Origin: Rhabdothermincola salaria
GTDB taxonomy: Bacteria; Actinomycetota; Acidimicrobiia; Acidimicrobiales; Acidimicrobilacustridaceae
Assembly: GCF_021246445.1 (NCBI RefSeq)
Contig: NZ_JAJQXW010000003.1
Location: 310,001-374,000, forward strand
Direction of reading: 5' to 3'
DNA length: 64,000 nucleotides
How positions within the stretch are numbered: position 1 is the first letter of the stretch; the number at the start of each line of letters is the position of its first letter. Both the position numbers and the translations under genes were made by a program. The notes below the pieces were generated by a model. The model had not been told where the DNA came from. It made no database searches and saw nothing but the letters and a program-made list of their open reading frames with translations. Below, piece by piece: positions 7,248-36,197 of this stretch.

Positions 7248-7253
7248 GGCCCG

Positions 7254-7259: not shown

Positions 7260-7336
7260 CCGGGGCCGCGCCGGTGGGGTCTCAGCCCGGGCGGGCCACG
7301 ACCGGGCCGCCATCGTGGCCGCCGCGGCCCGCCTCC

Positions 7337-7780: not shown

Positions 7781-7803
7781 GTGGTCAGGCTGGCAGGACT
7801 CCG

Positions 7804-7950: not shown

Positions 7951-8033
7951 GCCCCGGCGCGAGGTCGCGCCGCTGCGACCGATGCCACAGGCGCGATCGG
8001 GTGATTCTGTCCGGGGGGCACCCTCGCCACCGC

Positions 8034-8039
8034 TAGCGT
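8034..8039 (+). promoter_or_regulatory. -10 hexamer of a probable leaderless promoter for the phosphatase
   Basis: TAGCGT ends eight bases before the GTG at 8048. It lies 83 bases after the tandem repeat, and no Shine-Dalgarno site is present. Confidence 0.45.
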
Positions 8040-8047
8040 CGGGCCTC

Positions 8048-8518: not shown

Positions 8519-8538
8519 TCCACCCACCACGCCCGTAG

Positions 8539-8580
8539 TTGCATGAGATCGGCGTGCTCCAGTGCGCCGATTCCATGCAA
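8539..8580. repeat. Imperfect palindromic repeat, copy 1 of a dispersed element
   Basis: TTGCATGAGATCGGCG at 8539-8554 pairs imperfectly with CGCCGATTCCATGCAA at 8565-8580. It sits between the convergent phosphatase and CcmI-like genes, 21 bases after the former. The outer arm TTGCATGAGATCG and the tail CATGCAAGAAGC recur in the perfect palindrome at 38885-38934. It may act as a bidirectional terminator, but sequence conservation in the arms suggests a REP-like repeat family. Confidence 0.7.
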
Positions 8581-8617
8581 GAAGCGTCTGAGGGCCCGGG
8601 CCGAGCGGTCCGGGGGG

Positions 8618-21737: not shown

Positions 21738-22036
21738 GCGACGCCCCCGACGATCCCGAGCCCGACCCCCGCCCCCGGGACACGTCGGCCGATCCCGTCC
21801 GGGTGCGGCGAGCCAAGATCCAACGCCTGGCCTCCCTGGGCCAACGCCTCGGGTACCTGCTCTACGCGGTGGCCATGGCCGCGTTCTTCTACGGGTTCTT
21901 CGTCGACTTCAACGGCACGGTCGTCACCGTGATCGTGAGCACCATGGCGGTGGGATCGGCCGCCCTGGCCCCGGCGATCGTGCTGGGCTACGCGGTGAAG
22001 GCCGCCGAGCGCGACGACCTCGAGCACGGCCGCTGA
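21734..22036 (+). CDS. Two-helix membrane protein of unknown function
   Basis: This 100-residue protein has an acidic Pro/Asp-rich N terminus, a basic segment (RVRRAKIQRLASLGQRLGY) and two hydrophobic helices (LLYAVAMAAFFYGFFVDF and VVTVIVSTMAVGSAALAPAIVLGYAV) ending in a charged tail. Its GTG start overlaps the glycosyltransferase stop (GTGA), so the two are translated together. I do not recognise the family. Confidence 0.65.
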   Translation: MSDAPDDPEPDPRPRDTSADPVRVRRAKIQRLASLGQRLGYLLYAVAMAAFFYGFFVDFNGTVVTVIVSTMAVGSAALAPAIVLGYAVKAAERDDLEHGR

Positions 22037-22073
22037 CACCGCCAACGGCGCGGCGGCGGTCCGCCGACCTGGT

Positions 22074-22661
22074 TCACTCGGGACGCAGGCCCCGCAGCCC
22101 CGCCCAGGCCAGCTCGGCGACCTGGGCCGCGAGGTGGTCGGCGTCGAGCTGGATCTCCTTGGCCAACCAACGCCGGCAGGTGCTCTCGCCCAGACCCACG
22201 ATGCCGTAGGCGAGCAGGCGTCGACGCTCCTCGGACAGCCCGTCGACGGCGATGAGGTCGGCGATGAGGTCGGCGATCTGGCGTTGGACCTTGCTGGCCT
22301 CGGCCAGGAACTCGGCGTCGCGCCGCACCTCGCCATCGAAGAGCACGGCGAAGCCGTCGCGCTGCTCGTCGACCCAGCGGAACCAGGCCTCGAACCCCCG
22401 CAGGACCTGCTGGTGCGGGCTCGGCGCCCCGATGGTGGCCTCCCGCACCCGCTGGCGGAGCTCGCCGCCGACCTCGCGCAGAACCTCGAGGAAGAGCTCG
22501 CGCTTGGAGCCGAAGTGCTGGTAGAGCACCGGCTTGGTGACCCCTGCGGCATCGGCGATGTCGTTCATGGACGCCTGGTGGTACCCGCGCTCGGCGAAGG
22601 TGGCGAGCGCCGTAGCCAGGAGCTGGTGGCGACGTTCGGCGGCGGGGAGTCGGGCGTTCAT
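22074..22661 (-). CDS. TetR/AcrR-family transcriptional regulator
   Basis: This 195-residue repressor-type protein has the TetR helix-turn-helix at residues about 12-55 (ALATFAERGYHQASMNDIAD, then AAGVTKPVLYQHFGSKRELF) and an all-helical ligand-binding C-terminal domain. The ATG at 22661 begins the usual first helix; the longer frame upstream is shadow sequence of the GGDEF/EAL gene. An inverted repeat, TACC-N4-GGTA, 50 bases upstream could be its own operator. A similar repeat lies upstream of the acyl-CoA dehydrogenase at 33394. The ligand is unknown; many actinobacterial TetR proteins of this size bind acyl-CoA. Confidence 0.9.
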   Translation of the reverse strand: MNARLPAAERRHQLLATALATFAERGYHQASMNDIADAAGVTKPVLYQHFGSKRELFLEVLREVGGELRQRVREATIGAPSPHQQVLRGFEAWFRWVDEQRDGFAVLFDGEVRRDAEFLAEASKVQRQIADLIADLIAVDGLSEERRRLLAYGIVGLGESTCRRWLAKEIQLDADHLAAQVAELAWAGLRGLRPE

Positions 22662-22710
22662 CGAGATGACCTCATCGTGGCGACGAGCGTAACGACCCCG
22701 ACGACCCCGT

Positions 22711-22726
22711 CCTACCACCCGGTAAC
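22711..22726. promoter_or_regulatory. Candidate TetR operator
   Basis: CCTACC-ACCC-GGTAAC contains the inverted repeat TACC-N4-GGTA, 50-65 bases before the tetR start. The half-site and spacing match the longer GTTACC-N4-GGTAAC at 34674-34689. Confidence 0.4.
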
Positions 22727-22791
22727 AACGCGGTGGCCGCCCGCCCGCCGGACGGCGGCACCGCGCCGTCTCGTGGTCGACGAGACCCTGA

Positions 22792-24564
22792 TCAGGGACG
22801 CGACGCCTGCGCTGCTGGCCTCGGGCTGGCCACGATCGGTCGATCGGTGGGCTCGACCGCAGGGGCCGTGCCGAGCACCCGGTCGGCGACGGCGTCGGCC
22901 GGGCCGGGGGCCGCGAAGTGGAACCCCTGGGCGCGGTCGCAGCCGAGCTCGGCGAGCACGTCCGCCTGCTCGCGGGTCTCGACGCCTTCGGCGACGACGC
23001 CCATGCCGAGGGCGTGGGAGAGCTCGATGATCGAGGCGACGATGGCTCTCTCGGTCGCCCCCGCGGCGAGGCCGTGGACGAAGGACCGGTCGATCTTGAC
23101 GAAGTCGAGGGGGAACATGCGCAGGTACGACAGCGACGAGTAGCCGGTGCCGAAGTCGTCGAGGCCGACCTTGACGCCGGCGGCACGCAGGAACGTCAGA
23201 CCCGTGAGGGCGGAGTTCGACGCCTCCATCAGTATCCGCTCGGTGACCTCGACCTGCAGGACGCCGGGCGGAAGGTGGTGGTCGGCGAGCTGGTCGATCA
23301 CCGACTGGGCGAAGCCGGCGTTGGCCAGGTCTCGGGCCGTGACGTTGAGGGCCACGTCGACGAAGGCCGTGCCGGCGAAGGGCACGCGCCACGCCGCGGC
23401 CTGCTCGACGACCTGCCCGAGCATCCACTCGTCGATGGTGGCCAGGACGCCGGTCTCCTCGGCGACCTCGATGAACGCCTCGGCCGCGATGAGCTCTCCC
23501 GCGTCGTCGTCCCAGACCCGCACGAGCGCTTCGACGGCCACGGTCTCGCCGCTCGCCAGCTCGATGATCGGCTGGTAGGCGACACGGAGGCGGTCCTCGG
23601 CGAGGGCCCGGCGCAGCATGCGCTCGGTGCCGAGGCGGCCGACGGCGCGGGTGCGAAGGTCTTCGTCGAACACGTCGGCTCGGTCGCGGCCGCGGTCCTT
23701 GGCTCGATAGAGGGCGAGGTCGGCCTCCTGGAGGAGCCCTTCGGCGCTGTGGCCCGCGTCGGAGGTCACGGCGACGCCGGCGCTGGCGGTGCAGATGAAC
23801 TGCTCGTCGCCCACCACGAAGGGGGCGCGACCGGCCTCCACGATGCGGGCCCCGAGCGCGACGGCCTCATCGGGGTCGACCACGTCCTCGATGACGACGG
23901 CGAACTCGTCGCCCCCCAGCCGGGCCAGGGTGTCCTGCGGCCGCAGGACCTGCAGCAGCCGTTCGGCCATCTGCGACAGGACGGCGTCACCGATGTGGTG
24001 GCCCAGCGAATCGTTGATCAGCTTGAAGCGGTCGAGGTCGAGGTAGAGGACGGCGACGAGGCTGTCCCCGCGGTCCAGCCGGAGCAGGGCGTGGCGGAGC
24101 CGATCGAGGAAGACGGTGCGGTTGGCCAGACCGGTCAGCGGGTCCGATGCCGCCTGGCGGCGCAGGTCGAGCTCGGACTGCCGGCGCTCGGCGACGTCTC
24201 GCACCGCCGACACCACCAGGCGTTCGCCGCCCGCCTCGATCGACCGAGAGCGGGATTCGATCCATCGATAGGAGCCGTCGGCGCACCGGAACCGGTAGGT
24301 GGTGGTGATGGTCTCGCCGTCGCGCCAGGCCTCGCCGTGGGCCTCTTCGATGAGCCGGCAGTCGTCCGGGTGGGTGAAGGAGATGAGGGGGCGGCCCAAC
24401 AGCTCGGGGGCCGTCCACCCGAACGGCTCGAGCCCCGCCGAGGACACCAACCGGTACACGCCGTCGACGCCGGTGACGGTCTGCAGATCGGGCGAGCCGT
24501 CGACGACCACGCCGGGCAACGCAGCATCGACGGTGGTACCACCGGCAGTCGTCGTCGCAGCCAT
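22792..24564 (-). CDS. PAS-GGDEF-EAL cyclic di-GMP turnover protein
   Basis: This 590-residue cytoplasmic protein starts with a PAS domain (VYRLVSSAGLEPFGWTAPEL, about residues 25-125), then a diguanylate cyclase domain with an intact GGDEF motif (LARLGGDEFAVVIED, about 225) and an EAL phosphodiesterase domain with VEALVRV, ALNVTARDL, LQVEVTERILM, GLDDFGTGYSSL and FVKIDRSF. Both domains look catalytically competent, so the net activity may depend on the PAS signal. The ATG at 24564 is chosen for the GGGGAG ribosome-binding site; the longer frame is unsupported. It is divergent from the STAS/GAF-ANTAR genes across 258 bases. Confidence 0.93.
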   Translation of the reverse strand: MAATTTAGGTTVDAALPGVVVDGSPDLQTVTGVDGVYRLVSSAGLEPFGWTAPELLGRPLISFTHPDDCRLIEEAHGEAWRDGETITTTYRFRCADGSYRWIESRSRSIEAGGERLVVSAVRDVAERRQSELDLRRQAASDPLTGLANRTVFLDRLRHALLRLDRGDSLVAVLYLDLDRFKLINDSLGHHIGDAVLSQMAERLLQVLRPQDTLARLGGDEFAVVIEDVVDPDEAVALGARIVEAGRAPFVVGDEQFICTASAGVAVTSDAGHSAEGLLQEADLALYRAKDRGRDRADVFDEDLRTRAVGRLGTERMLRRALAEDRLRVAYQPIIELASGETVAVEALVRVWDDDAGELIAAEAFIEVAEETGVLATIDEWMLGQVVEQAAAWRVPFAGTAFVDVALNVTARDLANAGFAQSVIDQLADHHLPPGVLQVEVTERILMEASNSALTGLTFLRAAGVKVGLDDFGTGYSSLSYLRMFPLDFVKIDRSFVHGLAAGATERAIVASIIELSHALGMGVVAEGVETREQADVLAELGCDRAQGFHFAAPGPADAVADRVLGTAPAVEPTDRPIVASPRPAAQASRP

Positions 24565-24822
24565 GTCGCTCCCCGTGAGGCTGAGCGCTACCGAGGTCCG
24601 GAGCAACGCGGCTGTCGTGTCGTCCGCATCGGCGAGGCGAGCGGCTCGTGTGGTGATCCTACCGTGCCGCCCGGCCCGGCGGAAGGGGCCGGGCAGGGTG
24701 TACGGTGACAACGGCACGACAACACAGCCCAGACGTGCCGGACCAGCACCACGCTGGTTCGGGAGCGGTGCTCCGGACCCTGGTAGCGCACGTTGCTCGC
24801 AACGACCGGAACCAGGACACCC

Positions 24823-25353
24823 ATGCGTACCCACGAAGAGCCCTCAGCGTCGGTGTGCCGACGCGGGTCCCCCGATCCAGGTAGCGATCCCCTCCGCACC
24901 GTGGTCTGGCTCCGCGGCGACCACCACCTCGGCACCCGAACGCGTCTGTCGGCGGCCATCGCCGAAGCCGCCCGGGCCGACGACGCCGACCTCGTCGTCG
25001 ACCTCAGCGGCGTGACCTTCATGGACGCGTCGACCATCGGCGCCCTCGTCGTCGCCCGACACCACCTCCGAGCTCGCTCCCGATCGCTGTGCGTCCGGGC
25101 CCCGTCACCGCTCGCCCGGCGACTCCTCGACGCGTGCGGGCTGGTCGCCCTGATCGACGACGACGCCGAGCCTGCGCACCCGCCCGCGGCCCCCGCCCTG
25201 GGCTCGTGGGTCGACGTGCCCGCATCGGAGCGCTCCGGCGATCCTGCGCCGTCGGCCAGCCGCGGGGCCCCGTCCCCGCGGCCTGCGCTCGTCGAGGTGG
25301 AGCACGGCGCCGACCTGGCCGGGTCGGTCCCGCCCCACCGAGGGCCGCCGTGA
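24823..25353 (+). CDS. STAS-domain protein (anti-sigma factor antagonist-like)
   Basis: This 176-residue protein contains a STAS domain at residues about 20-105 (TVVWLRGDHHLGTRTRL, DLVVDLSGVTFMDASTIGAL). The Ser/Thr in MDASTIGAL is at the site that partner kinases phosphorylate in SpoIIAA-like proteins. The C-terminal 70 residues are Pro/Ala/Ser-rich and probably disordered. The ATG has an AGGA site upstream. Its stop overlaps the next GAF-ANTAR gene (GTGA). No anti-sigma kinase is encoded nearby, so it may report to a partner elsewhere. Confidence 0.82.
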   Translation: MRTHEEPSASVCRRGSPDPGSDPLRTVVWLRGDHHLGTRTRLSAAIAEAARADDADLVVDLSGVTFMDASTIGALVVARHHLRARSRSLCVRAPSPLARRLLDACGLVALIDDDAEPAHPPAAPALGSWVDVPASERSGDPAPSASRGAPSPRPALVEVEHGADLAGSVPPHRGPP

Positions 25354-26081
25354 CCGAGGACGGCCGCCAGCGCCGGCTGGCCATCCTCGAACGCCTGCTG
25401 CACCCCGGCCCGGGGTTCACGACCGAGCGGCTCTGCCAGGTGTGCGCGGGCGTCACCGGTGTGACCGGGGCCGGGATCATGCTCATGGCGGGCGACATCC
25501 CCCGCGGATCGGTGTGCACCACCGACTCCGTCAGCGGCGTCATCGAACAGCTGCAGTACGACCTCGGCGAAGGTCCCTGCGTCGACGCCTACCACCAGGA
25601 CCGTCCCGTGTACGAGCCCGACCTCGCCCAACCCGACACGCTGCGCTGGCTGGCCTTCACCGGACCGGCCGTCGAGGCCGGCGCCAGGGCCATCTTCGGC
25701 TTCCCCCTCCAGGTCGGCGCCGTCCGTCTCGGTGCGCTCAACCTCTACAACGACCGTTCCGGGTCGCTCACCGACGACCAGCGCCGCGACGCGTTGGTCA
25801 TGGCCGACGTGGCCGCCCAGGCCGTCCTGCTCCTCCAGGCCGAGGCACCCCCCGACACCCTCGCCGCCGAGCTGGAGACCAACGCCAACTTCCAGTACGT
25901 GGTCCACCAGGCGACAGGCATGGTCGCGGCCCAGCTCGAGGTCACGGTCAGCCAAGCCCTGATCCGCCTGCGCGCCTACGCCTTCGGCAACGACCGACCC
26001 CTCACCGATGTCGCCCGCGACGTCGTCGACCGACAGCTGCGCTTCGACGCCGACAGCGGCGAGAAGGACCTCATGCCATGA
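25350..26081 (+). CDS. GAF-ANTAR RNA-binding regulator (1)
   Basis: This 243-residue protein pairs a GAF sensor domain (about residues 20-165; GITGTGAGIMLMAG-like VTGVTGAGIMLMAGD, LGEGPCVDAYHQDRPVYEPD) with a C-terminal ANTAR domain (ATGMVAAQLEVTVSQALIRL, then RAYAFGNDRPLTDVARDVVD). ANTAR domains bind paired hexaloop RNA hairpins and act as antiterminators. The GTG start overlaps the STAS gene stop, so sensor and STAS protein are co-translated. A second GAF-ANTAR gene follows after 118 bases. Confidence 0.88.
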   Translation: MTEDGRQRRLAILERLLHPGPGFTTERLCQVCAGVTGVTGAGIMLMAGDIPRGSVCTTDSVSGVIEQLQYDLGEGPCVDAYHQDRPVYEPDLAQPDTLRWLAFTGPAVEAGARAIFGFPLQVGAVRLGALNLYNDRSGSLTDDQRRDALVMADVAAQAVLLLQAEAPPDTLAAELETNANFQYVVHQATGMVAAQLEVTVSQALIRLRAYAFGNDRPLTDVARDVVDRQLRFDADSGEKDLMP

Positions 26082-26133
26082 CCACCCACCATCTCGTGCC
26101 CGCGCCCCCGCCGCCCGGGGACCCTACGATCGA

Positions 26134-26153
26134 GGACCTCGGGCCCGAGGTCC
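26134..26153. repeat. Perfect 20-bp palindrome between two GAF-ANTAR genes
   Basis: GGACCTCGGG and CCCGAGGTCC are directly adjacent in the 118-base gap. In RNA it folds as GGACCTC around a six-base GGGCCC. The position next to ANTAR genes invites comparison with ANTAR targets, but the conserved A1 and G4 of those hexaloops are absent. It could also be an operator. Confidence 0.6.
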
Positions 26154-26199
26154 GAACCGACAGGCCACATCGCCGGTGGTCACCCGACGGGAGCCCCCG

Positions 26200-26937
26200 A
26201 TGACCAGAGAATCCGTGCTCGCCCAAACCTTCGTCGAGCTGGCCGACACCCTGGTCGACGACTTCGATGTCGTCGACCTCCTCACCCTGCTCGCCGACCG
26301 CTGCGTCGAGGTGCTCGACGTGCAGGCCGCCGGGATCATGTTGGCGGCGCCGGACGGACAGCTTCGCGTCATGGCCTCGTCCAGCGAGGCCATGCGCGTC
26401 CTGGAGCTGTTCGAGATCCAGGCCCAGGAGGGCCCCTGCTACGAGTGCCACCGCACCGGACAAGCCGTCGTGAACCAGGACCTCGACGCCTCGGATGGCC
26501 CGTGGCCGCAGTTCGCCACCGAAGCGCTCGGCGCCGGGTTCCGCTCGGCCCATGCCCTCCCCTTGCGCCTTCGCGGCTCGGTGATCGGCGCGCTGAACCT
26601 CTTCCGGTCCGGCTCCGGGGCGATGGGCCCCGCCGACGTCGACCTCGCCCAGGCGTTCGCCGACGTCGCCACCATCGCCATTCTCCAGCACCGGGCCGCG
26701 CTCGAGGCGCAGGTCCTCGCCCAGCAGCTGACGCACGCCCTGAACAGCCGGGTCATGCTCGAGCAGGCCAAGGGCATGGTCGCCGAGCGGCTCGACCTCG
26801 ACATGGAGCGATCCTTCTTCACCCTTCGCAGCTACGCCCGCAACCACAACCTCCGACTCAGCGACGTCGCCCAGTCCGTCATCGACAGCTCACTCCCACC
26901 GTCGGAGCTGCAGTCACCCCCGGCGACCCGGTCGTGA
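26200..26937 (+). CDS. GAF-ANTAR RNA-binding regulator (2)
   Basis: This 245-residue paralogue of the preceding gene has a GAF domain at residues about 20-165 (VLDVQAAGIMLAAPDGQLRV, QEGPCYECHRTGQAVVNQDL) and an ANTAR domain at about 180-235 (SRVMLEQAKGMVAERLDLDM, then FTLRSYARNHNLRLSDVAQS). The AKGM motif and the three-helix pattern are closer to the ANTAR consensus than in paralogue 1. Both GAF domains share the GPC motif, suggesting related signals. The ATG follows a GGGAG-like site. It converges with the WxL-associated membrane protein gene. Confidence 0.9.
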   Translation: MTRESVLAQTFVELADTLVDDFDVVDLLTLLADRCVEVLDVQAAGIMLAAPDGQLRVMASSSEAMRVLELFEIQAQEGPCYECHRTGQAVVNQDLDASDGPWPQFATEALGAGFRSAHALPLRLRGSVIGALNLFRSGSGAMGPADVDLAQAFADVATIAILQHRAALEAQVLAQQLTHALNSRVMLEQAKGMVAERLDLDMERSFFTLRSYARNHNLRLSDVAQSVIDSSLPPSELQSPPATRS

Positions 26938-26938
26938 G

Positions 26939-26955
26939 TGCCTGACCCTCAGGCA
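26939..26955. terminator. Bidirectional hairpin between convergent genes
   Basis: TGCCTGA-ccc-TCAGGCA forms a 7-bp stem that spans the space between the GAF-ANTAR stop and the stop of the minus-strand gene, even covering the latter's stop codon. It could end both transcripts. Confidence 0.45.
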
Positions 26956-27995
26956 GCCGGACGGGTGGCCCGACGACGGCGCTGCCGCCGGATCGACCAC
27001 GTGGCCCCCACGAGCAGGGCCAGCACGGCGCCGGCGCCCAAGAGGACCGCCCACGGCATCGCGTCGTCTGCTTCGGTCACGGGGACCGGGTCCCCGGCGG
27101 CCGAGAAGGTGATCGTCGCCTCTCCGGTCCTCTGAGTCAGCCCGCTCTCGAGGGTGATGACGGCGTCCCAGGGCCCGTCGGGGAGACGCTCGTCGAGCGC
27201 CACCCGCACCGGCTCGCTGCCGTCGATGGCCAGCGTGCGCCCGAGCTCGGCGGGGAACGGCCCGGCAGTGAGGCCGCCCGGACCGTTCGACAGTTGCAGC
27301 GTCCCCGTCATGTCGAGAGCCCGACCGCCGGTGTTGCGCACGATGGCCGCGACCACGGGGGCGCCATCCGCCGAGCGTTCCGCCGTGAGCGCCTCGATCT
27401 CGAAGTCGGCCGCAGGTGGCCCTCCCGGACCCACCGACACGTAGAGGCGGATGCCGACACGGCTCACTTGGACGACGCCGGTGGCGTCGGCCTCGTCGGA
27501 TCGGGCCTCGGCCCAGACGACGCCGTACTGCTCGCCGGGGGCGGCGTCGTCGGGAACGACGATGCGAACCACGGCGATCTCGGTCCCGCCGGCAGGGACG
27601 GTGGCGGCGTCGGCGGTGACCGACGTCCACGAGGCGAGGTCGTTGAGCTCCCTGCCGGGGGCGCCGACGAACGTGCCGTCGTCGATGGTCGCAGCCGCGG
27701 GATAGAGCACGAGCTCCTGGGCGGTGTCCGTCGTGTTGGCCACCTCGACGCGTCGCTCGATGACGGCGCCGGGCGCGAGGTGGTCGACGACGTAGATCCT
27801 GGCCCGAGGGTCGTCCTTGGCCGAGACCGGGGCATCGAGCAGACGCAGGCCGATGCCTCCGGGGTTCTGCTCGTCGGCGGTCGCCGCCGACACCGGTGCG
27901 CCGCCGGCGAGGAGGAGCAACCCCACGGTGAGCGAGACCAGCGCCAGACGGAGGGCGCGGGGTGGGCGAACGTCGTCGGTCGTGGGCGTCCGCAC
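26949..27995 (-). CDS. WxL-system membrane protein, DUF916/DUF3324-like
   Basis: This 348-residue exported protein has a signal peptide (LALVSLTVGLLLLAGGAPVSA), an Ig-like extracellular region and a C-terminal transmembrane helix with a basic tail (PWAVLLGAGAVLALLVGATW, then RRQRRRR). The first half resembles the peptidoglycan-binding DUF916 domain (ERRVEVANTTDTAQELVLYP, GEQYGVVWAEA); the second resembles the partner-binding DUF3324 region. In Firmicutes these proteins anchor WxL-domain proteins at the cell surface. The GTG start overlaps by one base the stop of the WxL-like gene upstream, so the two are one operon. Confidence 0.78.
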   Translation of the reverse strand: MRTPTTDDVRPPRALRLALVSLTVGLLLLAGGAPVSAATADEQNPGGIGLRLLDAPVSAKDDPRARIYVVDHLAPGAVIERRVEVANTTDTAQELVLYPAAATIDDGTFVGAPGRELNDLASWTSVTADAATVPAGGTEIAVVRIVVPDDAAPGEQYGVVWAEARSDEADATGVVQVSRVGIRLYVSVGPGGPPAADFEIEALTAERSADGAPVVAAIVRNTGGRALDMTGTLQLSNGPGGLTAGPFPAELGRTLAIDGSEPVRVALDERLPDGPWDAVITLESGLTQRTGEATITFSAAGDPVPVTEADDAMPWAVLLGAGAVLALLVGATWSIRRQRRRRATRPAA

Positions 27996-28534
27996 TAGAG
28001 CACCGAATGGGTGATGGTGGCGGAATACACGTTGGCGGCCATGCCGCCGGGGACGGCGACGGTGATCGTCGGGTTCCAGGTCGCCGAGTTGTCACCGGTG
28101 ATCCCCGACGCGGTGACCGCCGCACCCACGCCGGTGAGGTCGACCGGGTCGTTGGCCGTGTAGGTGGCGGTGCCGACCTTCGTGATCACTCCTGCGCCGT
28201 AGCTCACCGCCGAGGCCGCGATGGCCGGCCCACTCGGCGGGGTGAACGCCGTCGAGATGACGCTGGCCACCCAGCCCGAGCCGGCGGCGGCACTGCGGGC
28301 ATCGTCGACCTGGACCTGGCCGAGGGGGCCGCTGATGGTGCCGCCCTCGACGGTGTTGGCCCGGGTGCCGAGAGCACCGGCATCAGCAGGGACGGTGATG
28401 ATGAGTGCGCCCCCGGTGACGGTGATGGTCGCGGTGGTGGGCTCCTGGCCAGCGACGGGGCCGACGCCGGTCCCGAGGACGATGACCGCCGTGGCGGCAG
28501 TGGCGGTGGCGGCGAGCAGGCGGGCTCTGGTCAT
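27995..28534 (-). CDS. Secreted WxL-like surface protein (1)
   Basis: This 179-residue protein has a Sec signal peptide (ARLLAATATAATAVIVLGTG, then GPVAGQ) and a single beta-rich domain. Its C terminus (SATWNPTITVAVPGGMAANV, then YSATITHSVL) matches the end of WxL domains, where Trp-x-x-x and a final strand before Ser-Val/Leu are conserved. Cys is absent. It probably attaches to peptidoglycan non-covalently together with the DUF916-like protein encoded immediately downstream. It is paralogous to the divergent gene at 28748. Confidence 0.72.
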   Translation of the reverse strand: MTRARLLAATATAATAVIVLGTGVGPVAGQEPTTATITVTGGALIITVPADAGALGTRANTVEGGTISGPLGQVQVDDARSAAAGSGWVASVISTAFTPPSGPAIAASAVSYGAGVITKVGTATYTANDPVDLTGVGAAVTASGITGDNSATWNPTITVAVPGGMAANVYSATITHSVL

Positions 28535-28747
28535 GGTGGGTCGTCCCAGCGTTGGCGATCGGAGAGTTCCGGATCAGCACCTTCCTCCAGGTGATCGGCA
28601 GTTGCGGCCGGCCTCTGGTCACAACGTCCGATCAACATCTCGGCGAACCCACTACAGGAGCCCAACAACGGTTCAGCCCGGTTCCGAGGGGTCCGACACA
28701 GTGCGGACGAGAGTGCCGTCCGGCGCTCCCGAGACAAGGGACACCCC

Positions 28748-29260
28748 ATGAAAACAGCCAAGACCCTGCTGCTCGCCGCCGGCGCCACCGCGCTCGTGCT
28801 GGGCGTCGCGGTGCCGGCCTCCGCCGACGACACCACCACCACGTTCAGCCTCACCGGCGGCAGCCTCACCCTCAGCGTGGCCGCCAGCGCGGCACTCACC
28901 AACCAGGCCTCGGGCGTCGCCGCCAACACCATCACCGGCACCCTCGGTGAGGTCCTGGTCACCGACGCTCGCGGCGGCACCGCCGGCTGGGTCACCTCCG
29001 CAGCGTCGACGACGTTCACCGGCACGGGCCTGTCCGTCTCCACCGGGGTCGCCTACACCAACGCCACCGTCACCACGACCGGCACCAGCACCGTGGCACC
29101 CGCGGACGGGCAGTCGATCACCGCCGTGGCGCCCGTGGCCACCGCCACCGCCGTGTCCGGCAACAACACGGCGGCCTGGAACCCGACGCTCGACGTCAGC
29201 ATGCCCGCCGGCGCACTCGCCGGCGACTACTCGGGCACCGTCACCACCTCGCTCGTCTAG
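28748..29260 (+). CDS. Secreted WxL-like surface protein (2)
   Basis: This 170-residue exported protein has a classical signal peptide (MKTAKTLLLAAGATALVLGV, cleavage likely after ASA), followed by a Thr/Ser/Ala-rich beta domain. The C terminus (NNTAAWNPTLDVSMPAGALA, then GDYSGTVTTSLV) aligns with that of the divergent paralogue and with WxL domains. The shared motifs GGSLTLSV/GGALIITV, NTITGTLGEVLVTDAR/GGTISGPLGQVQVDDAR and GW place both in one family. The ATG follows an AAGGGA site. The 213-base gap before it also carries a hairpin around CGGACG...CGTCCG in the 5' leader. Confidence 0.74.
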   Translation: MKTAKTLLLAAGATALVLGVAVPASADDTTTTFSLTGGSLTLSVAASAALTNQASGVAANTITGTLGEVLVTDARGGTAGWVTSAASTTFTGTGLSVSTGVAYTNATVTTTGTSTVAPADGQSITAVAPVATATAVSGNNTAAWNPTLDVSMPAGALAGDYSGTVTTSLV

Positions 29261-29293
29261 GCAAAAGCGAACCACCGGTAGCTCGAACGACGG

Positions 29294-29315
29294 GCCCGCT
29301 GCTTGCGCAGCGGGC
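29294..29315 (+). terminator. Intrinsic-type terminator after WxL-like gene 2
   Basis: GCCCGCTGC-ttgc-GCAGCGGGC forms a 9-bp stem 33 bases after the stop, followed by TCTGCC. It may also serve the convergent B12-sensor gene, which ends 20 bases further on. Confidence 0.6.
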
Positions 29316-29334
29316 TCTGCCGCGTCGAGGGCGA

Positions 29335-30345
29335 TCAGCGCGGCGTGCCGGCGGCCCGCTGCGTGGCGCAGAGCCTCGCCGCCTCCGTCATCCCGGCCTC
29401 CGCCACCACGTCACCGATGATGTCCAGCGACCGGTCCAGCACGACGGGGGGCACGCCACGCGTCGCCAGGACATGGGCCAGCCACTCGACGAAGGCGGTG
29501 AAGATGCCGTCGTCGCCCAGGTCGATCGACGTCACCAGGTAGCTGAGGATGTAGCCGACGTCGGTGCGCGTGCTGGCGAGCTGGGCCGGGGAGTAGGTGG
29601 CCATCGCCGGCAGACGCTCAGCCATGGCGGACAGGCACGATCGCTGCAGCTCCTCGGTGGCCAGCTCCAGGGCGAACGCCTCGGGAGGTGAGGGGGCCGG
29701 GGATCGCTCGCGAGCGGGCGGCGCAGCCAGGGCGGCACCGAGGTCGGCGGTCGGACCGATCCACCCGCTGGCGCCGAGCCGTCGTGCTCGGACGTCGTCG
29801 GACCCGAATGCAGCCCCGGCCGCCAGGGCGGGAAGTCCGAGCTCGGCGACGGCGGCGAAGCACCGGCGGGCACCGCCCAGGAACAGCGGGACGGTGCAGC
29901 TGATCACCACGACATCGGGCTCGGTGACCGCGGCGTACCGCTGGAGGTCGTCGGCCGGGAGGCTGCCGCCGAGGAAGGTCACGTCCCACCCCTCACTGCG
30001 GAGCAGCTGGGCACCCATGCGGGCCGGCGTCGTGTGGTGCTCGCCTTCGGCGCAGGCCACCAGGGCCGTCCCCCGCCACGCATCCGGGGCCCGTTCCTGC
30101 AAGGCCAGAGCTCCGAGCACACCGTCGACCACCGCGGTGGACGCGTGCTCATCGGCGGTGCTCCACAGGTTCGCCGCCCACCGATCCCCCACCTCGACCT
30201 GCACCGGGGCCAGGACGTCCGTGATGATCGCGTCGGTCTCGAGGCCACGGGAACGGAGCGCGAGGACGAGCTCGATCGCCGGTCGCGGCTGCCCTCGGCG
30301 GGCCACGCCCAGCAGTTCGGCCGCCTCCGGCCCGAGTGGTGTCAC
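29335..30345 (-). CDS. CarH-like cobalamin-binding sensor without DNA-binding domain
   Basis: This 336-residue cytoplasmic protein begins with a four-helix B12-binding module that has the light-sensor motif W-x9-EH (W56, E66-H67, in DRWAANLWSTADEH). A Rossmann-like cobalamin domain follows with the lower-ligand region GEHHTTP (His104) and a GGSLP loop. CarH/LitR photoreceptors share these motifs but carry an N-terminal MerR domain, which is absent. The usual Gly of ExHxxG is Pro107. The last 130 residues form an unrecognised helical domain (LVTSIDLGDDGIFTAFVEWL). GTG 30345 is used; GTG 30360 is possible. It follows the receiver-EAL gene on the same strand and may regulate it. Confidence 0.78.
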   Translation of the reverse strand: MTPLGPEAAELLGVARRGQPRPAIELVLALRSRGLETDAIITDVLAPVQVEVGDRWAANLWSTADEHASTAVVDGVLGALALQERAPDAWRGTALVACAEGEHHTTPARMGAQLLRSEGWDVTFLGGSLPADDLQRYAAVTEPDVVVISCTVPLFLGGARRCFAAVAELGLPALAAGAAFGSDDVRARRLGASGWIGPTADLGAALAAPPARERSPAPSPPEAFALELATEELQRSCLSAMAERLPAMATYSPAQLASTRTDVGYILSYLVTSIDLGDDGIFTAFVEWLAHVLATRGVPPVVLDRSLDIIGDVVAEAGMTEAARLCATQRAAGTPR

Positions 30346-30448
30346 GGCGCTTCGGTGCACGAGCGTCCCGACGCTGTCGGGCCGGGACCATCCGGACCCA
30401 CCACCACGGCCGCCGCGGTGCGGGACCCACGGGCCCGGAGCGGGGACG

Positions 30449-33172
30449 TCACGAGCGGGTCGCGCTCTCGTCGACACCGCGTCGAAGGCGCGACGGTCGG
30501 GCGAGGTCGATGAGCTCTTCCCGGGCGGCGCCCTCTCCGAGCCGTTCCGCTCGACGGAGGAGGTCCACGGCCTGGCGTGCATCCTCGACGAGGCGCGGCA
30601 ACAGCCGCTCGAGCTGCATGCGGGCGACCGTGAACCGATCGACCTCGACGAGCACCGACGGCCCTTCGCCGAGGGACACGTCGACGGGGAGCGCGTGCTC
30701 CCCTGCGTCGGTCGCCAGCACCGGGAGACCGCCCATCCCCCGGATCGTGGTCTGGAGCAGCTCGGCTGCGGCCGGCGCGGAGCGAACCCGCAGCAGACCG
30801 CGCAGCAGGTCGGCGACGACGTCGGACTCGGCGACTTCCACGGCCGCCGTCGGCCGTTCCGGGCCGCGGGCGAGCGGTGGCGGACCGGGTCTGCGGTGAG
30901 GCGATGGGGCACCGGCCCGCCTCGCCGACGGGCGATGGCCATCGTCGGTGGCACCGGAGGCACCCGCCACGCCTGATGCGGGTGCCGTCGGGATCCGGCC
31001 GGCCCCTTCGATCAGCACATCGCGGGCCGGCGCAGGGCGTCCGAACAGGTAGCCCTGACCGAAGGAGCATCCGAGGCGTCGCAACTCCTCGTGTTGCGCC
31101 TTGGTCTCGATGCCCTCGGCCACCACGAACAGGCCCAGCTCTGCGCCGAGCGAGATGATGGAGCGGACGATGGCGGCGTCGTTCGCCGTGTCACCGGCTC
31201 TCGCCACGAAGCTGCGATCGATCTTGAGCGTGTGCACCGGGAAGCTGCGCAGGTAGGTGAGGCTCGCCCAGCCCGTCCCGAAGTCGTCGATCGACACGCC
31301 GACGCCGAGGTCGACCAGGCGGCGCAGCACCAGGCACGCCTTCTCCAGCTCCTCGACCACCGCCGTCTCGGTCACCTCCAACCACAGGCAGGCCGGGTCG
31401 AACCCGGCGTCGCCCATGATCTCGGTGAAGCGCTCGACGACCCCGGGATCGGCCAGCTGCCGGGTCGACACGTTGACGGACAAGTAGATGTCGGCCCCCG
31501 CTCGGCGCCACTCGGCGGCCTGCCGGCAGGCCTTCTCGAGCACCCGTTCTCCGAGCCCCACGATCAGGCCGCTCCGCTCGGCGGTGTCCAGGAACTCGGC
31601 GGGCGGGAGCGTGCCACGCTCCGGGTGCTCCCAGCGCACCAGCGCTTCGAAGGCGATGAGCCGACCATCGACGAGGTCGACGACGGGTTGGTAGTGGACG
31701 TCGAACTCGTCGTCGGCCAGGGCCTGGCCCAGCCGGGCGGTGAAGCTCGCATCCTGTTCGAGCGAGCGGTCTCGCCGAGCGGCGACGGCAGAGCGGTTCA
31801 CCGACACGATGCCCACGGGCTCACCGACGCCGTCGCGGACGAGCGTGGTCGAGCTCAGGATCTCGACGGTCGAGCCGTCCCGCGCCAGCTGCATGCTCTC
31901 GCCGTGCCACCGCCCGGTGTGCTCCAGGTGCTCCCACATGTCCGGGATCTGGTCGTGTTCGTCGACCCACCGGAGGACGTCGAGGACGTGTCGCCCCCGC
32001 ACGTCGACCTCGCTCCAGCCGTAGAGGCGCTCCGCGGCGGCGTTCCAGCTGCGGATGTGGAAGTGCAGGTCGGTGATGATGACCGCATCGGTGAGGTCGC
32101 CGAGCACGCCGATGACCAGCCGGCGCAGCCGGGCCGAGGCATCGCTCACCGGGGTGAGCCGCACGCGCCGCGCCGGACGGGCGTGCCAGGAGACGGGGGC
32201 CGAATCCACCGCCGCGGTGACCTCGCCCGCATCGCCGTGCCGGAAGTCCATGAGCTGGGAGCGTCGAGGCGTCCCCGTGGCCGTCACGAGGAGCCGCTCT
32301 CGCGCCGCGGCCGAGGAGGCGGTGGTCACGAGGTCGACGAGCCGCCTGCCGACGACCGCTCCTGGAGCGGCGGCCCCGACCAGGTCGGCGGCGGCCTGGT
32401 CGCAGAACACGATGAGGCCGTCGACGTGGACGATCTCGCCCGGCTCGAGCAGTGGCGCAGCCTCTTCCACCCCGGCCTCGCCTTCGACGGCGGCGTTCGG
32501 GAGATCCAACCGGTAGCCGGCTCCCCGCACCGTCGCGAGGAGCGTCGGACGCGCCGGATCGACCTCGAGCTTCTGGCGGAGGCGCCGTATGTGCTCGGTG
32601 ACCGTGGCCGCCTGCTGCCACTCCGAGGCCGATCGCCACACGGCGTTCAGGAGCTGCTCGCGATCGAAGACGTGCCCCGGACGCACCGCCAGGTACGCCA
32701 GCAGGTCGAACTCCTTCGCCGTCAACTTGACCCTCTCGCCCGCCGAGGTCACCTCCCGAGCCACCAGATCGATGTCGAATCGACCGATCCGGAGCACGGC
32801 GTCAGCGGCCGGGTCCCGACGTCGTCGGACCGCCAGGACGCGGGCCGTGAGCTCACGGAGGTAGAAGGGCTTCACGACGAGGTCGTCGGCCCCCCGCTCG
32901 AGCGCCCGCACCCGGTCGGCTTCGACCGTCGCTCCACTCAGCACGATGATGTGGGCGGTCGAGCCCGACGCCCGGAGGCCGTCGATGACGTCCAGACCGG
33001 ACCCGTCGGGCAATGCCAGCGCGACGATCACCACACCGAACGAGCGGAGGGCGATCGCCGCCTCGGCGCCGGCGACGGTGTCCGCGACGGTGACGTGGAT
33101 CCCCTGGTCCTGCAGCTGGGCCCGCACGCGCGCCCGGATGCCCGCCTCGTCGTCGACGAGCAGGACGCTCAC
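30449..33172 (-). CDS. Receiver-wHTH-PAS-EAL protein with degenerate receiver and C-terminal sensor-like domain
   Basis: This 907-residue protein has an unusual architecture. Residues 1-118 are a receiver (VLLVDDEAG, S79, K101), but the phosphoacceptor Asp is Ala51 (VIVALALPDGSG). Residues about 122-222 form an OmpR-type winged helix (LTAKEFDLLAYLAVRPGHVF, VRGAGYRL). A PAS-like region spans about 350-465. A complete EAL phosphodiesterase follows (FEALVRWEHP, SVNVSTRQL, EVTETAVV, IDDFGTGWASL, LKIDRSF, AEGIET). The C-terminal 160 residues (LLRVRSAPAAAELLQTTIRG, LPVDVSLGEGPSVLVEV) resemble a domain usually found before GGDEF domains, but no GGDEF follows. It may couple DNA binding to c-di-GMP breakdown without phosphorylation. 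Confidence 0.9.
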   Translation of the reverse strand: MSVLLVDDEAGIRARVRAQLQDQGIHVTVADTVAGAEAAIALRSFGVVIVALALPDGSGLDVIDGLRASGSTAHIIVLSGATVEADRVRALERGADDLVVKPFYLRELTARVLAVRRRRDPAADAVLRIGRFDIDLVAREVTSAGERVKLTAKEFDLLAYLAVRPGHVFDREQLLNAVWRSASEWQQAATVTEHIRRLRQKLEVDPARPTLLATVRGAGYRLDLPNAAVEGEAGVEEAAPLLEPGEIVHVDGLIVFCDQAAADLVGAAAPGAVVGRRLVDLVTTASSAAARERLLVTATGTPRRSQLMDFRHGDAGEVTAAVDSAPVSWHARPARRVRLTPVSDASARLRRLVIGVLGDLTDAVIITDLHFHIRSWNAAAERLYGWSEVDVRGRHVLDVLRWVDEHDQIPDMWEHLEHTGRWHGESMQLARDGSTVEILSSTTLVRDGVGEPVGIVSVNRSAVAARRDRSLEQDASFTARLGQALADDEFDVHYQPVVDLVDGRLIAFEALVRWEHPERGTLPPAEFLDTAERSGLIVGLGERVLEKACRQAAEWRRAGADIYLSVNVSTRQLADPGVVERFTEIMGDAGFDPACLWLEVTETAVVEELEKACLVLRRLVDLGVGVSIDDFGTGWASLTYLRSFPVHTLKIDRSFVARAGDTANDAAIVRSIISLGAELGLFVVAEGIETKAQHEELRRLGCSFGQGYLFGRPAPARDVLIEGAGRIPTAPASGVAGASGATDDGHRPSARRAGAPSPHRRPGPPPLARGPERPTAAVEVAESDVVADLLRGLLRVRSAPAAAELLQTTIRGMGGLPVLATDAGEHALPVDVSLGEGPSVLVEVDRFTVARMQLERLLPRLVEDARQAVDLLRRAERLGEGAAREELIDLARPSRLRRGVDESATRS

Positions 33173-33393
33173 CTCGGGCTCGCGCCAGGGTCTGGCGAGG
33201 ACGAGGCGACGCTCTCGACACAGCCGTCGCGGCCGTGTCGGCTGCCCAGCTCACGTCCTCGATCCATGTCACCGCTTCCCAGCCGCCCGGCGCGATCGGC
33301 GCCCGCGTAGCTGTCGAAGCCCGACGGTAACGGCGTCGCTCCGATTGTCCTCGGCGCTCGCGGGAGATCGACGATTCCGGTGGGCCCTGGTCG

Positions 33394-34611
33394 CTACTCG
33401 ATGCGCAGGCCGGAGATGGCCCGGCTGATCACGAGGCGCTGGATCTCGCTGGTGCCCTCGAAGATGGTGAAGATCTTGGCGTCGCGGTGCCAGCGCTCGA
33501 CCGGGTACTCGCGGGTGTAGCCGTACCCACCGAGGATCTGGATGGCCTGCTCGGTCGCCCAGACCGCCACCTCGCCCGCCTTCAGCTTGGACATCGAGCC
33601 CTCGCCGGCCACGAACTCCTTGCCGGTCGCCGCCATCCACGCGGCGCGATGCACGAGCAAGCGGGCCGCGTCGATCTCCATCTTCATGTCGGCCAGCTTG
33701 AAGGCGATGGCTTGGTTCATGATGATCGGCCGGCCGAACGCCTCGCGCTCCTTGGCGTAGTCGAGGGCGTACTCGTAGGCGGCCCGGGCCACGCCGAGGG
33801 CCTGGGCCCCCACCGCCGGCCGAGTGGCCTCGAAGGTGGCCATCGCCGGCTGCTTGGCGCCGGTCCGGCCCTTGTCGCGGCCGCGAGCCAGGCGATCGTC
33901 GAGCTTCTCCTTGCCGCCGAGGAGGCACCGCCCGGGCACCCGCACGTCGTCGAGGACCACCTCGGAGGTGTGCGACGCCTTGATGCCGTGCTTCTTGTAC
34001 TTCTGGCCCATGGAGAGGCCCTTGGTGCCGGGCGGCACGACGAAGCTGGCCTGGCCCCGCCCCTTGAGCTCGGGGTCGACGGCGGCGACCACGACGTGCA
34101 CGTCGGCGATGCCGCCGTTGGTGATCCAGGCCTTGGTGCCGTTGAGCACCCACTCGTCGGTGGCCTCGTCGTAGACGGCTCGGGTGCGCAGCGACGAGAC
34201 GTCGGACCCCGCGTCGGGCTCGCTCACGCAGAAGGCACCGAGCTTCACGTCGTCGGCGGTGCCGTAGCACTGGGGCACCCATTCCATGACCTGGTCCTGG
34301 GTGCCGTTGCCGGTGATGCCGGCGGCGGCGAGACCCGAGCCGAAGATCGACAGGCCGATGCCCGCGTCACCCCAGAACAGCTCCTCGATGGCGACCGGCA
34401 GGGTGAGCCCCTGGGGGTCGGCCATGGCGTTGGCCATGAACTCCCAGCCGTAGAGGCCGACGTTGGCGGCTTCCTGCACGATCGGCCAGGGGAACTCTTC
34501 CTTCTCGTCCCACTCCTCGGCGGCGGGGCGCACCACCGAGGCGGCGAAGTCGTGGACCCACTCCTTGATGGTGAGCTGGTCCTCGTTGAGCTCGAGGCTG
34601 AAATCGGCCAT
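33394..34611 (-). CDS. Acyl-CoA dehydrogenase
   Basis: This 405-residue FAD flavoprotein oxidises acyl-CoA thioesters to enoyl-CoA. It has the N-terminal helical domain, the middle beta domain (AFCVSEPDAGSDVSSLRTRA, then WVLNGTKAWITNGGIAD), and a C-terminal helical domain with the FAD/dimer motif (QILGGYGYTREYPVERWHRD). The catalytic base lies in IFEGTSEIQRLVISR (Glu). The chain-length preference cannot be read. The ATG has a GAGG site. An inverted repeat, GTTACC-N4-GGTAAC, 63-78 bases upstream suggests control by a TetR-type regulator. Confidence 0.92.
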   Translation of the reverse strand: MADFSLELNEDQLTIKEWVHDFAASVVRPAAEEWDEKEEFPWPIVQEAANVGLYGWEFMANAMADPQGLTLPVAIEELFWGDAGIGLSIFGSGLAAAGITGNGTQDQVMEWVPQCYGTADDVKLGAFCVSEPDAGSDVSSLRTRAVYDEATDEWVLNGTKAWITNGGIADVHVVVAAVDPELKGRGQASFVVPPGTKGLSMGQKYKKHGIKASHTSEVVLDDVRVPGRCLLGGKEKLDDRLARGRDKGRTGAKQPAMATFEATRPAVGAQALGVARAAYEYALDYAKEREAFGRPIIMNQAIAFKLADMKMEIDAARLLVHRAAWMAATGKEFVAGEGSMSKLKAGEVAVWATEQAIQILGGYGYTREYPVERWHRDAKIFTIFEGTSEIQRLVISRAISGLRIE

Positions 34612-34673
34612 GGGGCACCTCGCTGGTGTGAGTCGTCGTGGGGTCCGAGGGGGTCGAACCCGCCTCCCTCCAA

Positions 34674-34689
34674 GTTACCCGCCGGTAAC
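34674..34689. promoter_or_regulatory. Perfect inverted repeat, candidate operator of the acyl-CoA dehydrogenase
   Basis: GTTACC-CGCC-GGTAAC, two perfect 6-bp arms with a 4-base spacer, lies between cysS and the acyl-CoA dehydrogenase start. It resembles TetR-family operators of fatty-acid genes and matches the element before tetR at 22711. Confidence 0.5.
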
Positions 34690-34743
34690 CGCGGTGACCA
34701 CCATCAGGCTCTCGGGCCGGGGTGGAAGCACCGTCGGCGGGGC

Positions 34744-36114
34744 TCAGGCCCGACGGACCTGGGTGCCCTCGGCGGTGTCCTCCACCAGCCACCCGGCGCC
34801 CGACAGCTCGGCCCGCAGGGCGTCGGCGGTGGCGAAGTCCTTCGCCGCCCGGGCCTCGTCGCGGCGGCGGGCCAGGTCGCGGATCTCGTCGGGCACGTCG
34901 TGAGCCTCGGCCGCCAGCACCAGGCCGACCGCCTCGGTGATCGCTCCGATGGCTCGCACCAAAGGGGCGGCGGTCCATCGGTCGCCGGCATCGAGCGCGG
35001 TGTTGACCCGGGTGACCAGGCCGAACAGCAGTGCCACCGCCGCCGGGGTGTCGAGGTCGTCGTCCATGGACCGGCGGAACTCGGCGAGGGCGTCGGCGTC
35101 GGGCTCCACCTCGGAGCTGTCGAGCGCCAGCCCGACCCCCTTGGCCCGGCGGGCCACCGCGTCGAGGCGTTCGAGCGCAGCCGAGGCATCGGCGGTGGTG
35201 GACGGGGTGACCTCGAGCGGGCTGCGGTAGTGGGCCCGCAGCACCAACAACCGGTAGGCGCGGGGGTCGGTGCGCTCGACGAGGTCGAGCAGGGTGGTGA
35301 AGTTGCCCAGGCTCTTGGACATCTTCTCGCCGCCCACCTCGACGAAGCCGTTGTGCACCCAGTGCCGGGCGAACGTCCGCCCCGTGGCGACCGCCTGGGC
35401 GCGCTCGTTCTCGTGGTGGGGGAACGCCAGGTCCTGGCCGCCACCGTGGATGTCGAAGCCGTCGCCCAACAGGTCGAGCGACATCACCACGCACTCGGTG
35501 TGCCAGCCGGGCCGGCCCTCGCCCCACGGCGACGGCCACGACGGCTCGCCGGGCCCGGAGAACTTCCAGAGGGCGAAGTCGACCGGCGAGCGCTTGTGCT
35601 CGGCCACCTCGACCCGGGCGCCGGCCTGCAACGACTCGAGCGACTGGCGCGCCAGCAGCCCGTAGTCGTCGACGACGGCCGGGCTGAAGTAGACGCCGTC
35701 GTCGGAGACGTAGGCGTCGCCCCGCCCGACCAGGTCGACGATGAGCTCGACCATGCGCTCGACGTAGGCGGTGGCGTGGGGGTCGTGGTCCGGGCGGGCG
35801 ACACCGATGGCCTCCATGGCCTGCCACCAGATGGCCTCGTTCTCGGCCGCCACCTCGTCGGTGCTGCGGCCGCTCTCGACGGCGCGCGCCATGATCTTGT
35901 CGTCGATGTCGGTGATGTTCGACACGTACGTGACGTCGAGGCCCGACCAGGTGAGGTAGCGGCGCAGCACGTCGAACACCAGCGAGAAGCGACCGTGACC
36001 GAGGTGCGGCGGCCCGTACACGGTCGGTCCGCACACGTACATCGACACCTTGCCGGGCTCACGGGGCTCGAACGGGACGACCCGTCCCTGGGCGGTGTCG
36101 AAGAGGTGCAGCAC
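34744..36114 (-). CDS. cysS: Cysteinyl-tRNA synthetase
   Basis: This 456-residue class I synthetase charges tRNA-Cys. It has the zinc/ATP site CGPTVYGPPHLGH (a HIGH variant, with Cys28), TDIDDKI, the zinc ligands in GWHTECVV and PHHENERAQ, the KMSKS loop (GEKMSKSLGNF), and a C-terminal DALR-type helical domain (AKDFATADALRAEL). The related mycothiol enzyme MshC lacks most of the C-terminal region and is shorter, so CysS is favoured. The GTG at 36114 has TAGCGT six bases upstream and no ribosome-binding site. It diverges from valS across 83 bases. Confidence 0.93.
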   Translation of the reverse strand: MLHLFDTAQGRVVPFEPREPGKVSMYVCGPTVYGPPHLGHGRFSLVFDVLRRYLTWSGLDVTYVSNITDIDDKIMARAVESGRSTDEVAAENEAIWWQAMEAIGVARPDHDPHATAYVERMVELIVDLVGRGDAYVSDDGVYFSPAVVDDYGLLARQSLESLQAGARVEVAEHKRSPVDFALWKFSGPGEPSWPSPWGEGRPGWHTECVVMSLDLLGDGFDIHGGGQDLAFPHHENERAQAVATGRTFARHWVHNGFVEVGGEKMSKSLGNFTTLLDLVERTDPRAYRLLVLRAHYRSPLEVTPSTTADASAALERLDAVARRAKGVGLALDSSEVEPDADALAEFRRSMDDDLDTPAAVALLFGLVTRVNTALDAGDRWTAAPLVRAIGAITEAVGLVLAAEAHDVPDEIRDLARRRDEARAAKDFATADALRAELSGAGWLVEDTAEGTQVRRA

Positions 36115-36120
36115 GTCGAC

Positions 36121-36126
36121 ACGCTA
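36121..36126 (-). promoter_or_regulatory. -10 hexamer of a probable leaderless cysS promoter
   Basis: TAGCGT on the minus strand, six bases before the GTG start. The divergent valS gene has TAGCCT at 36181-36186, eleven bases before its ATG. Confidence 0.45.
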
Positions 36127-36180
36127 CCGGCGCCCTCGCGCCCCGCCCGAACGGCTTCGGGGACCGGCGAGGGTCGGCGG

Positions 36181-36186
36181 TAGCCT
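36181..36186 (+). promoter_or_regulatory. -10 hexamer before valS
   Basis: TAGCCT lies eleven bases before the valS ATG; the mRNA leader would be absent or very short. Confidence 0.38.
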
Positions 36187-36197
36187 CGGCGCCACCT

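Follow-up and report, generated by a model that had tools for sequence, protein, structure and literature searches.

Photocobilins are photoreceptors that use both B12 and biliverdin, and main-text passages of Zhang et al. 2024 (PMC10979010) describe two of them, SasPcob and AbPcob. The first, from Saccharothrix syringae (8J2W, 8J2X), is a stand-alone protein, which the authors' network ties to STAS/SpoIIE genes (PMC10979010, same passages). The second belongs to AbDPcob (8J2Y), a single polypeptide with a cyclase as the output, in which, according to the same passages (PMC10979010), light raises kcat more than 10-fold, and AdoCbl alone lowers the activity in the dark. The mixing of a photocobilin with a cyclase can alter the latter, and the two proteins interact (PMC10979010, main-text passages). 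The part of PMC11796333 that describes AbDPcob (HAS09818) gives a DGC followed by two chromophore domains. The B12 light-sensing core of these proteins, i.e., the W-x9-EH motif and the axial His, is common to CarH/LitR regulators.

The window considered here, which is the whole stretch of 64,000 nucleotides analysed, carries a stand-alone gene of this type (referred to as the sensor) in tandem with a gene for a predicted EAL phosphodiesterase. The probability that these two genes together form a split counterpart of the light-gated c-di-GMP enzymes, whose characterised fusion is AbDPcob, is estimated at about 0.65. Both systems have the same sensor fold and motifs, a c-di-GMP enzyme as the output and, as discussed below, a small unnamed domain, X. 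They differ in that AbDPcob is one polypeptide with a cyclase, whereas the window holds two genes and its enzyme is an EAL phosphodiesterase that also bears a winged helix, and in the bilin Asp position, which is His in AbDPcob and Asp in the sensor. The receptor family is known; the split variant with an EAL phosphodiesterase partner is new. All features of the window are on the minus strand unless stated otherwise.

The Sensor Protein

The sensor gene (29335..30345) is an uninterrupted reading frame of 336 aa from GTG 30345 to the stop; its start position is uncertain, with further in-frame GTG codons at 30360 and 30477. The original prediction named W56, E66-H67 and H104 as kept and a DNA-binding MerR domain as missing, and both statements hold. 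The W56-x9-E66-H67 motif and H104 lie at the expected positions of the 336-aa frame, and Pfam detects only B12-binding_2 (E 1.6e-9, residues 16-80) and B12-binding (E 3.2e-11, residues 93-179), with no HTH/MerR and no third family of any kind up to E 1. The four-helix B12-cap region (residues ~5-85; 30091..30333; PF02607) contains W56 and E66-H67, which align with W61 and E71-H72 of SasPcob. The Rossmann cobalamin-binding domain (residues ~92-212; 29710..30072; PF02310) contains the axial H104, corresponding to His108 of SasPcob. The C-terminal bilin-binding globin (photoglobin) domain (residues ~219-332; 29350..29691) is assigned from the alignment with SasPcob and from the fold.

Among all PDB sequences searched with phmmer, the best match of the sensor is SasPcob (8j2x/8j2w, E ~3e-53, residues 9-316), and AbPcob (8j2y) is matched at E 8.6e-42, compared with E 1e-8 for CtMerR and E 3e-6 to 3e-5 for CarH among the MerR-type B12 sensors. 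The AlphaFold model of the sensor, built on an alignment of 50 sequences, is confident (pLDDT 95.2, pTM 0.91), and its top five Foldseek matches are photocobilin chains (E 2.4e-23, TM 0.87), with 8j2w/8j2y aligned over 327 columns. The observation is thus beyond chance, given that residues 9-316 are homologous to the crystallised chains of two photocobilins and that the model is confident, and the sensor is almost certainly a photocobilin. The earlier label of a CarH-like protein fits the B12 core motifs, but photocobilin is the better name on these E-values. Similarly, the C-terminal part had been described as a different helical domain; it is helical and it does differ, but its identity was missed. 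As photocobilin chains lead the Foldseek matches, and as judged from alignment and model, it is a five-helix bilin-binding globin joined to the B12 domain.

The residues at the bilin-contact positions support the same assignment. The phmmer alignment, with the numbering shifted by 6 as set by W61/E71-H72/H108, places Asp270 and Trp296 of SasPcob at D262 (codon 29560-29562) and W288 (codon 29482-29484). Of the 50 aligned sequences, with that of the window counted in, 43 retain the Asp and 49 the Trp; the scan patterns partly imposed the conservation of EH and H104, but not that of Asp262 and Trp288. Part of PMC10979010 reports His at the bilin Asp position of AbPcob. The CXRD/CXQD motif is named as a bilin motif in part of PMC10151467; by our reading of it, D262 would take the Asp position, with Thr at the Cys position. 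The bilin-contact His137 of SasPcob, which comes from the other monomer, is Asp133 in the sensor. This position is not counted as photocobilin-defining, since it is other than His in 37/50 aligned sequences and also in AbPcob.

All four elements of the light-response signature listed in part of PMC11796333 (GxxW, EH, GxxH, GxxxP) are found in the sensor. The bis-His position of CarH (H132) is A57, so that a CarH-type bis-His light state is unexpected; the same His is replaced in known photocobilins as well (PMC11796333, in part). In comparison with CarH/LitR, the sensor therefore has no MerR domain, an additional bilin globin and no bis-His His. In comparison with SasPcob, it is likewise stand-alone and has W, EH, the axial His and the bilin Asp and Trp in common, but it carries Ala after W56 instead of Gln, and its neighbour is an EAL-X gene instead of the STAS/SpoIIE link.

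The Partner Gene

The partner gene (30449..33172, 907 aa) encodes a protein with the order REC-wHTH-PAS-EAL-X and ends 103 bp before the sensor start on the same strand. Pfam assigns a receiver domain (32837..33166, PF00072), an OmpR-type winged-helix DNA-binding domain (32507..32740, PF00486, E 8e-24), a PAS domain (31802..32098, PF00989) and an EAL phosphodiesterase domain (31034..31735, PF00563, E 5.2e-76) with intact catalytic motifs, each residue of which is presumed to have its usual role. The domain X (30512..30823) closes the protein. The placement of the sensor in tandem behind a receiver-wHTH-PAS-EAL gene, as originally predicted, agrees with the Pfam order, the common strand and the 103-bp spacing; the C-terminal X had been overlooked. 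The gap between the genes (30346..30448, 103 bp) contains no promoter-like or terminator-like site in a consensus scan. A weak terminator-like hairpin lies just past the photocobilin stop (29268..29285), with one such site in the region against 0.6 expected.

PvrR, VieA and PdeL join an EAL phosphodiesterase to a receiver and/or HTH, as does the partner. Set against them, the partner alone has an OmpR wHTH and a PAS between REC and EAL, a C-terminal X and a photocobilin neighbour, and its receiver is without the phospho-acceptor. A PvrR model matched the EAL part of the partner, under the cut-off of that model. At receiver position 51, which we take to be that of the phospho-acceptor Asp, the partner has Ala (window 33025 region), whereas the one homologue aligned, from genome G149, has Asp. 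Such a receiver, together with the intact EAL motifs, would fit an enzyme taking its input from elsewhere, without proving it.

The homologue from G149 is 41.7% identical to the partner, has a GGDEF after X and ends at a contig edge; no photocobilin was found in this genome, in which the only match is without the globin part. Since the window protein stops right where the GGDEF of the homologue would start, the partner gene may derive from a bifunctional ancestor that lost its cyclase. The exact pair of REC-wHTH-PAS-EAL-X and photocobilin was seen only in the window.

The Domain X and Its Linkage with Photocobilins

The domain X comprises ~105 aa C-terminal to the EAL domain. The 128-aa piece from the C-terminal end of the partner matched no Pfam family, and X itself has no convincing match in Pfam, NCBIfam or PDB sequences. 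A homologous stretch (37% over 108 aa) is found in a second gene of the same genome, between PAS and GGDEF. The first X profile was built from these two domains, both of which lie beside photocobilins, and gave 7 matches in 6/395 class genomes; the second, built from those seven, gave 16 matches in 11/396 phylum genomes. Pooled, with 4 matches in common, they yield 19 matches in 14 genomes.

A photocobilin lies within 2 kb in 11/19 of the X matches, or 9/17 once the two seed matches are removed. These cases are the two seeds, two in G563, one of four in G731 and one each in G348, G176, G790, G482, G443 and G504; in G482 the two genes are convergent. A tenth non-seed case is provided by G763, where X closes one contig, a photocobilin lies close to the beginning of a second, and the two contigs overlap exactly over 121 bp. 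X is away from a photocobilin in G243, which has one elsewhere in the genome, and in three of the four matches of G731; genomes G050, G607 and G149 (in the last, X is at the contig edge) carry X with no photocobilin detected. By chance, 9/17 would be expected with a probability of 2e-14 even at p = 0.01 per match, with matches treated as independent, which related genomes are not. X is therefore linked with photocobilins, and the only two X matches of the window's own genome adjoin its only two photocobilins.

The reverse view, from photocobilins to X, relies on two sets of loci. X is found within 2 kb in 4/37 places of the class set and in 35/50 of the named set (34 on the same strand), the latter number being biased because X-linked photocobilins made up most of its query, A5. 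The named set consists of the best 50 of 80 loci, with Bacillota and other weak matches left out, and at least 5 of the 50 are the same contigs as in other sets. GGDEF lies within 2 kb in 31 of the 35 X-linked named loci.

The strongest single fact for the link is provided by AbPcob. Its sequence (8j2y) matches locus L149 (Acidimicrobiaceae bacterium UBA9382) with 100% identity across 303 aa, and at this locus a single open frame encodes X-GGDEF-photocobilin. As far as the identity of the sensor part shows, AbDPcob, the light-gated cyclase, thus contains X. The domain is not named in the part of PMC11796333 that describes AbDPcob, nor in the main-text passages of PMC10979010.

Other partners of X vary. 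The EAL-X-GGDEF form is found in G149, L161, L182 and L186, and PAS-HisKA-HATPase precedes X in G482. At L176 and L190, X and photocobilin form one frame with no GGDEF between, which argues that the association of X is with the sensor, beyond that with GGDEF. At L167 (~7200-8930) a MerR-X gene (MerR_1 E 5.9e-16) lies directly before the photocobilin, and on domain content this arrangement looks like a CarH split into two proteins.

The model of X, from 44 sequences, consists of two helices, two short strands and a 43-residue helix (pLDDT 93.2, pTM 0.80). Its best Foldseek match is a GAF at a weak E of 0.077, and with VIA the GAFs dominate among the matches listed, with Z ≤ 8.2 and none strong. 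GAF models do not match X, which by itself does not prove a different fold, and there is no GAF profile among the 7 families matching any of the 44 X members up to E 1. That X is a reduced GAF is a guess from the model.

Distribution and the Second Pair

Among the 37 genomes of the family searched, only the window's own genome (G000) has a match past residue 246 of the query, and the module is therefore accessory. Conservation of the sensor in close relatives was rejected: the other family genomes are without such a match, and their partial matches resemble CarH-type cores. A contig scan with query P0001 alone confirmed no relatives. A conserved EAL/GGDEF neighbourhood, which the original prediction had proposed to look for, gives a mixed picture. 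The sensor is absent from close kin (1/37), and GGDEF or EAL lies within 2 kb of a photocobilin in 4/37 class-set places (3 GGDEF, 1 EAL, the own two included), whereas the biased query of the named set gives 32/50 for GGDEF and 6/50 for EAL.

The tree was built from 85/99 photocobilin places; the other 14, which were partial or duplicate, had been removed manually. In it the sensor clusters with seven sequences, of which five are X-linked and which come mostly from Nitriliruptoraceae where named (97/77, under the starred level), and the paralogue from the same genome groups with AbDPcob and two others (100/99). The SpoIIE-linked rows and a set of 24 rows lacking these partners stand apart from the sensor. 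On this tree, X linkage requires 11 changes, compared with 28.5 in shuffles. The 24-row group (L079, L081, L082, L084-L102, L104, L109; class set) has no X, GGDEF, EAL, SpoIIE or ABM within 2 kb.

The second photocobilin of the genome (C1:1158235-1159236) is 35% identical to the sensor. At this locus (L035, 8218-10700) it overlaps the end of the PAS-X-GGDEF gene (PAS E 2.6e-9, GGDEF E 2.8e-31), in that the stop of the cyclase gene overlaps the photocobilin start; the GGEEF motif is present. From its domains, this pair is the predicted cyclase counterpart to the phosphodiesterase module of the window, and one module with each enzyme suggests opposing light control of c-di-GMP.

Chromophore Supply and a Monooxygenase beside Photocobilins

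The genome contains one match to haem oxygenase (C3:279235-279837, E 5.6e-58), a family found in 3/14 control genomes, and one to cob(I)alamin adenosyltransferase (E 1e-49), found in 9/14. Judged from these genes, both chromophores could be made in the cell, provided that cobalamin is made or taken up.

A gene or domain of the ABM family lies within 2 kb of the photocobilin at 20/50 named and 3/37 class-set loci. In 16 of the 20 (L145, L147, L148, L150-L152, L156, L158, L160, L162, L163, L165, L166, L168, L172 and L173) the ABM match ends 27-42 bp before the start of the photocobilin match. The profile of eleven members matches the haem-degrading monooxygenases HmoB, MhuD, IsdI and IsdG, with an uncharacterised Thermus protein as the top match, and such an HmoB/IsdG/MhuD-like gene is a possible local bilin source, as far as homology can suggest. 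No ABM gene is found around the sensor (region 22001-37000); the genome has two ABM matches elsewhere. A literature search found no report of a link between the monooxygenase and photocobilins, and main-text passages of the photocobilin literature do not name X, which has no name to search by. Both X and the haem-degrading-type monooxygenase beside many photocobilins look new.

Proposed Mechanism and Alternatives

In the proposed mechanism, AdoCbl, with H104 below and the W56/E66-H67 pocket above, would hold the sensor as a dimer in the dark. Green light would cleave the Co-C bond, and sensitivity to red light would come from biliverdin held by the globin domain. The dark, AdoCbl-loaded dimers and the light-exposed, adenosyl-free sensor would then differ in their engagement of X. 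In such a scheme, the C-terminal X of the EAL protein would read the changed sensor, which would alter the phosphodiesterase activity and thus the breakdown of c-di-GMP. The DNA binding of the winged helix might be altered too, as a second, light-dependent output. By analogy to AbDPcob, light would switch the output on, although the direction is not predictable. That the sensor acts on its EAL neighbour is judged likely, and that it does so through X somewhat less so, if still favoured. The earlier claim that light changes protein contacts and in this way controls c-di-GMP was right as to the likely output, given the architecture and the AbDPcob homologue; for the window pair itself the link is a prediction, well supported by architecture. 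The two-gene light-gated enzyme is weakened as an explanation because the sensor, if GTG 30345 is its start, begins 103 bp downstream with no overlap, and because His137 of SasPcob is Asp and W103 is His in the sensor.

The alternative that survives best, and is still improbable, is that the photocobilin only happens to lie beside the EAL gene and acts on other partners, as a trans-acting general stress/metabolism sensor of the kind proposed for SasPcob, with the EAL enzyme driven by its own PAS. SpoIIE phosphatases are found within 2 kb of photocobilins at 6/37 class-set and 3/50 named places, and the genome has ~19 EAL genes (21 match pieces), so that an EAL neighbour alone means little. With X near only 4/37 class-set places and SpoIIE near 6/37, photocobilins evidently use other partners as well. 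However, one of the only two X domains in the genome ends precisely this EAL protein. Specificity is thus given by X, not by EAL, which is why a chance EAL neighbour stays a rival.

A distinctly less probable alternative is a sensor of B12 (or bilin) supply, in which AdoCbl binding sets the state and light is incidental. The dark effect of AdoCbl on AbDPcob, given in passages of PMC10979010, speaks for it. Against it, 50/50 aligned sequences retain the adenosyl pocket (W, EH) on which the light response depends (a count partly forced by the search patterns of the scan), and the bilin site is kept although it would have no role in pure B12 sensing. Finally, the sensor could be a CarH-like protein that has simply shed MerR and has neither a bilin nor a dedicated partner. 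The common B12 motifs speak for this reading, but it is very improbable, as the sensor is far closer to photocobilins than to CarH, has a bilin globin with the conserved Asp and Trp, and coexists with a separate HTH-B12 protein (L038). For the same reason, CarH minus its HTH was rejected as an identity of the sensor: in the phmmer search of the PDB, the best MerR-type B12 sensor falls ~45 orders of magnitude behind the photocobilins.

Beyond the preferred reading of a two-gene light-gated enzyme, a broader and more tentative one, to which we give slightly less than even odds, is that X is a general photocobilin plug. It would be a small, GAF-like domain that receives the light signal and has become combined, in cis or in trans, with cyclases, phosphodiesterases, a histidine kinase or a MerR DNA-binding domain, with the local monooxygenase supplying the bilin. 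The enzyme encoded in the window would then be under light control and perhaps able to bind DNA as well, so that two proteins together would provide the CarH function. If X is the contact, signalling from sensor to enzyme becomes testable with small constructs, the segment before GGDEF in AbDPcob is accounted for, partners can be predicted by sequence, and X could serve as a plug-in part for green/red optogenetics.

Further Observations

Residue 103 of the sensor, beside the axial His104 (GEHH), is His, whereas at least 90% of the 50 aligned sequences have Trp; a role of His103 as a second or alternative ligand is conceivable. Between 22792 and 26937 the window contains a GGDEF-EAL protein on the minus strand and, by eye only, a STAS-like protein and two GAF-ANTAR-like proteins on the plus strand. 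The CarH-like regulator L038 (C1 of the same genome, locus positions 5705-6610) combines HTH_17, its best HTH match instead of MerR, with B12-binding. Among the Bacillota, L203, L206 and L208 have a weak globin-like match (E ~1e-4), a B12 domain and an ABM match within ~1 kb. At these three, at L214 and at other Bacillota loci, a weak globin-like and/or ABM match is found close to the gene of a B12-binding domain. Where the two parts are found on the same strand, the globin part comes before the B12 part.
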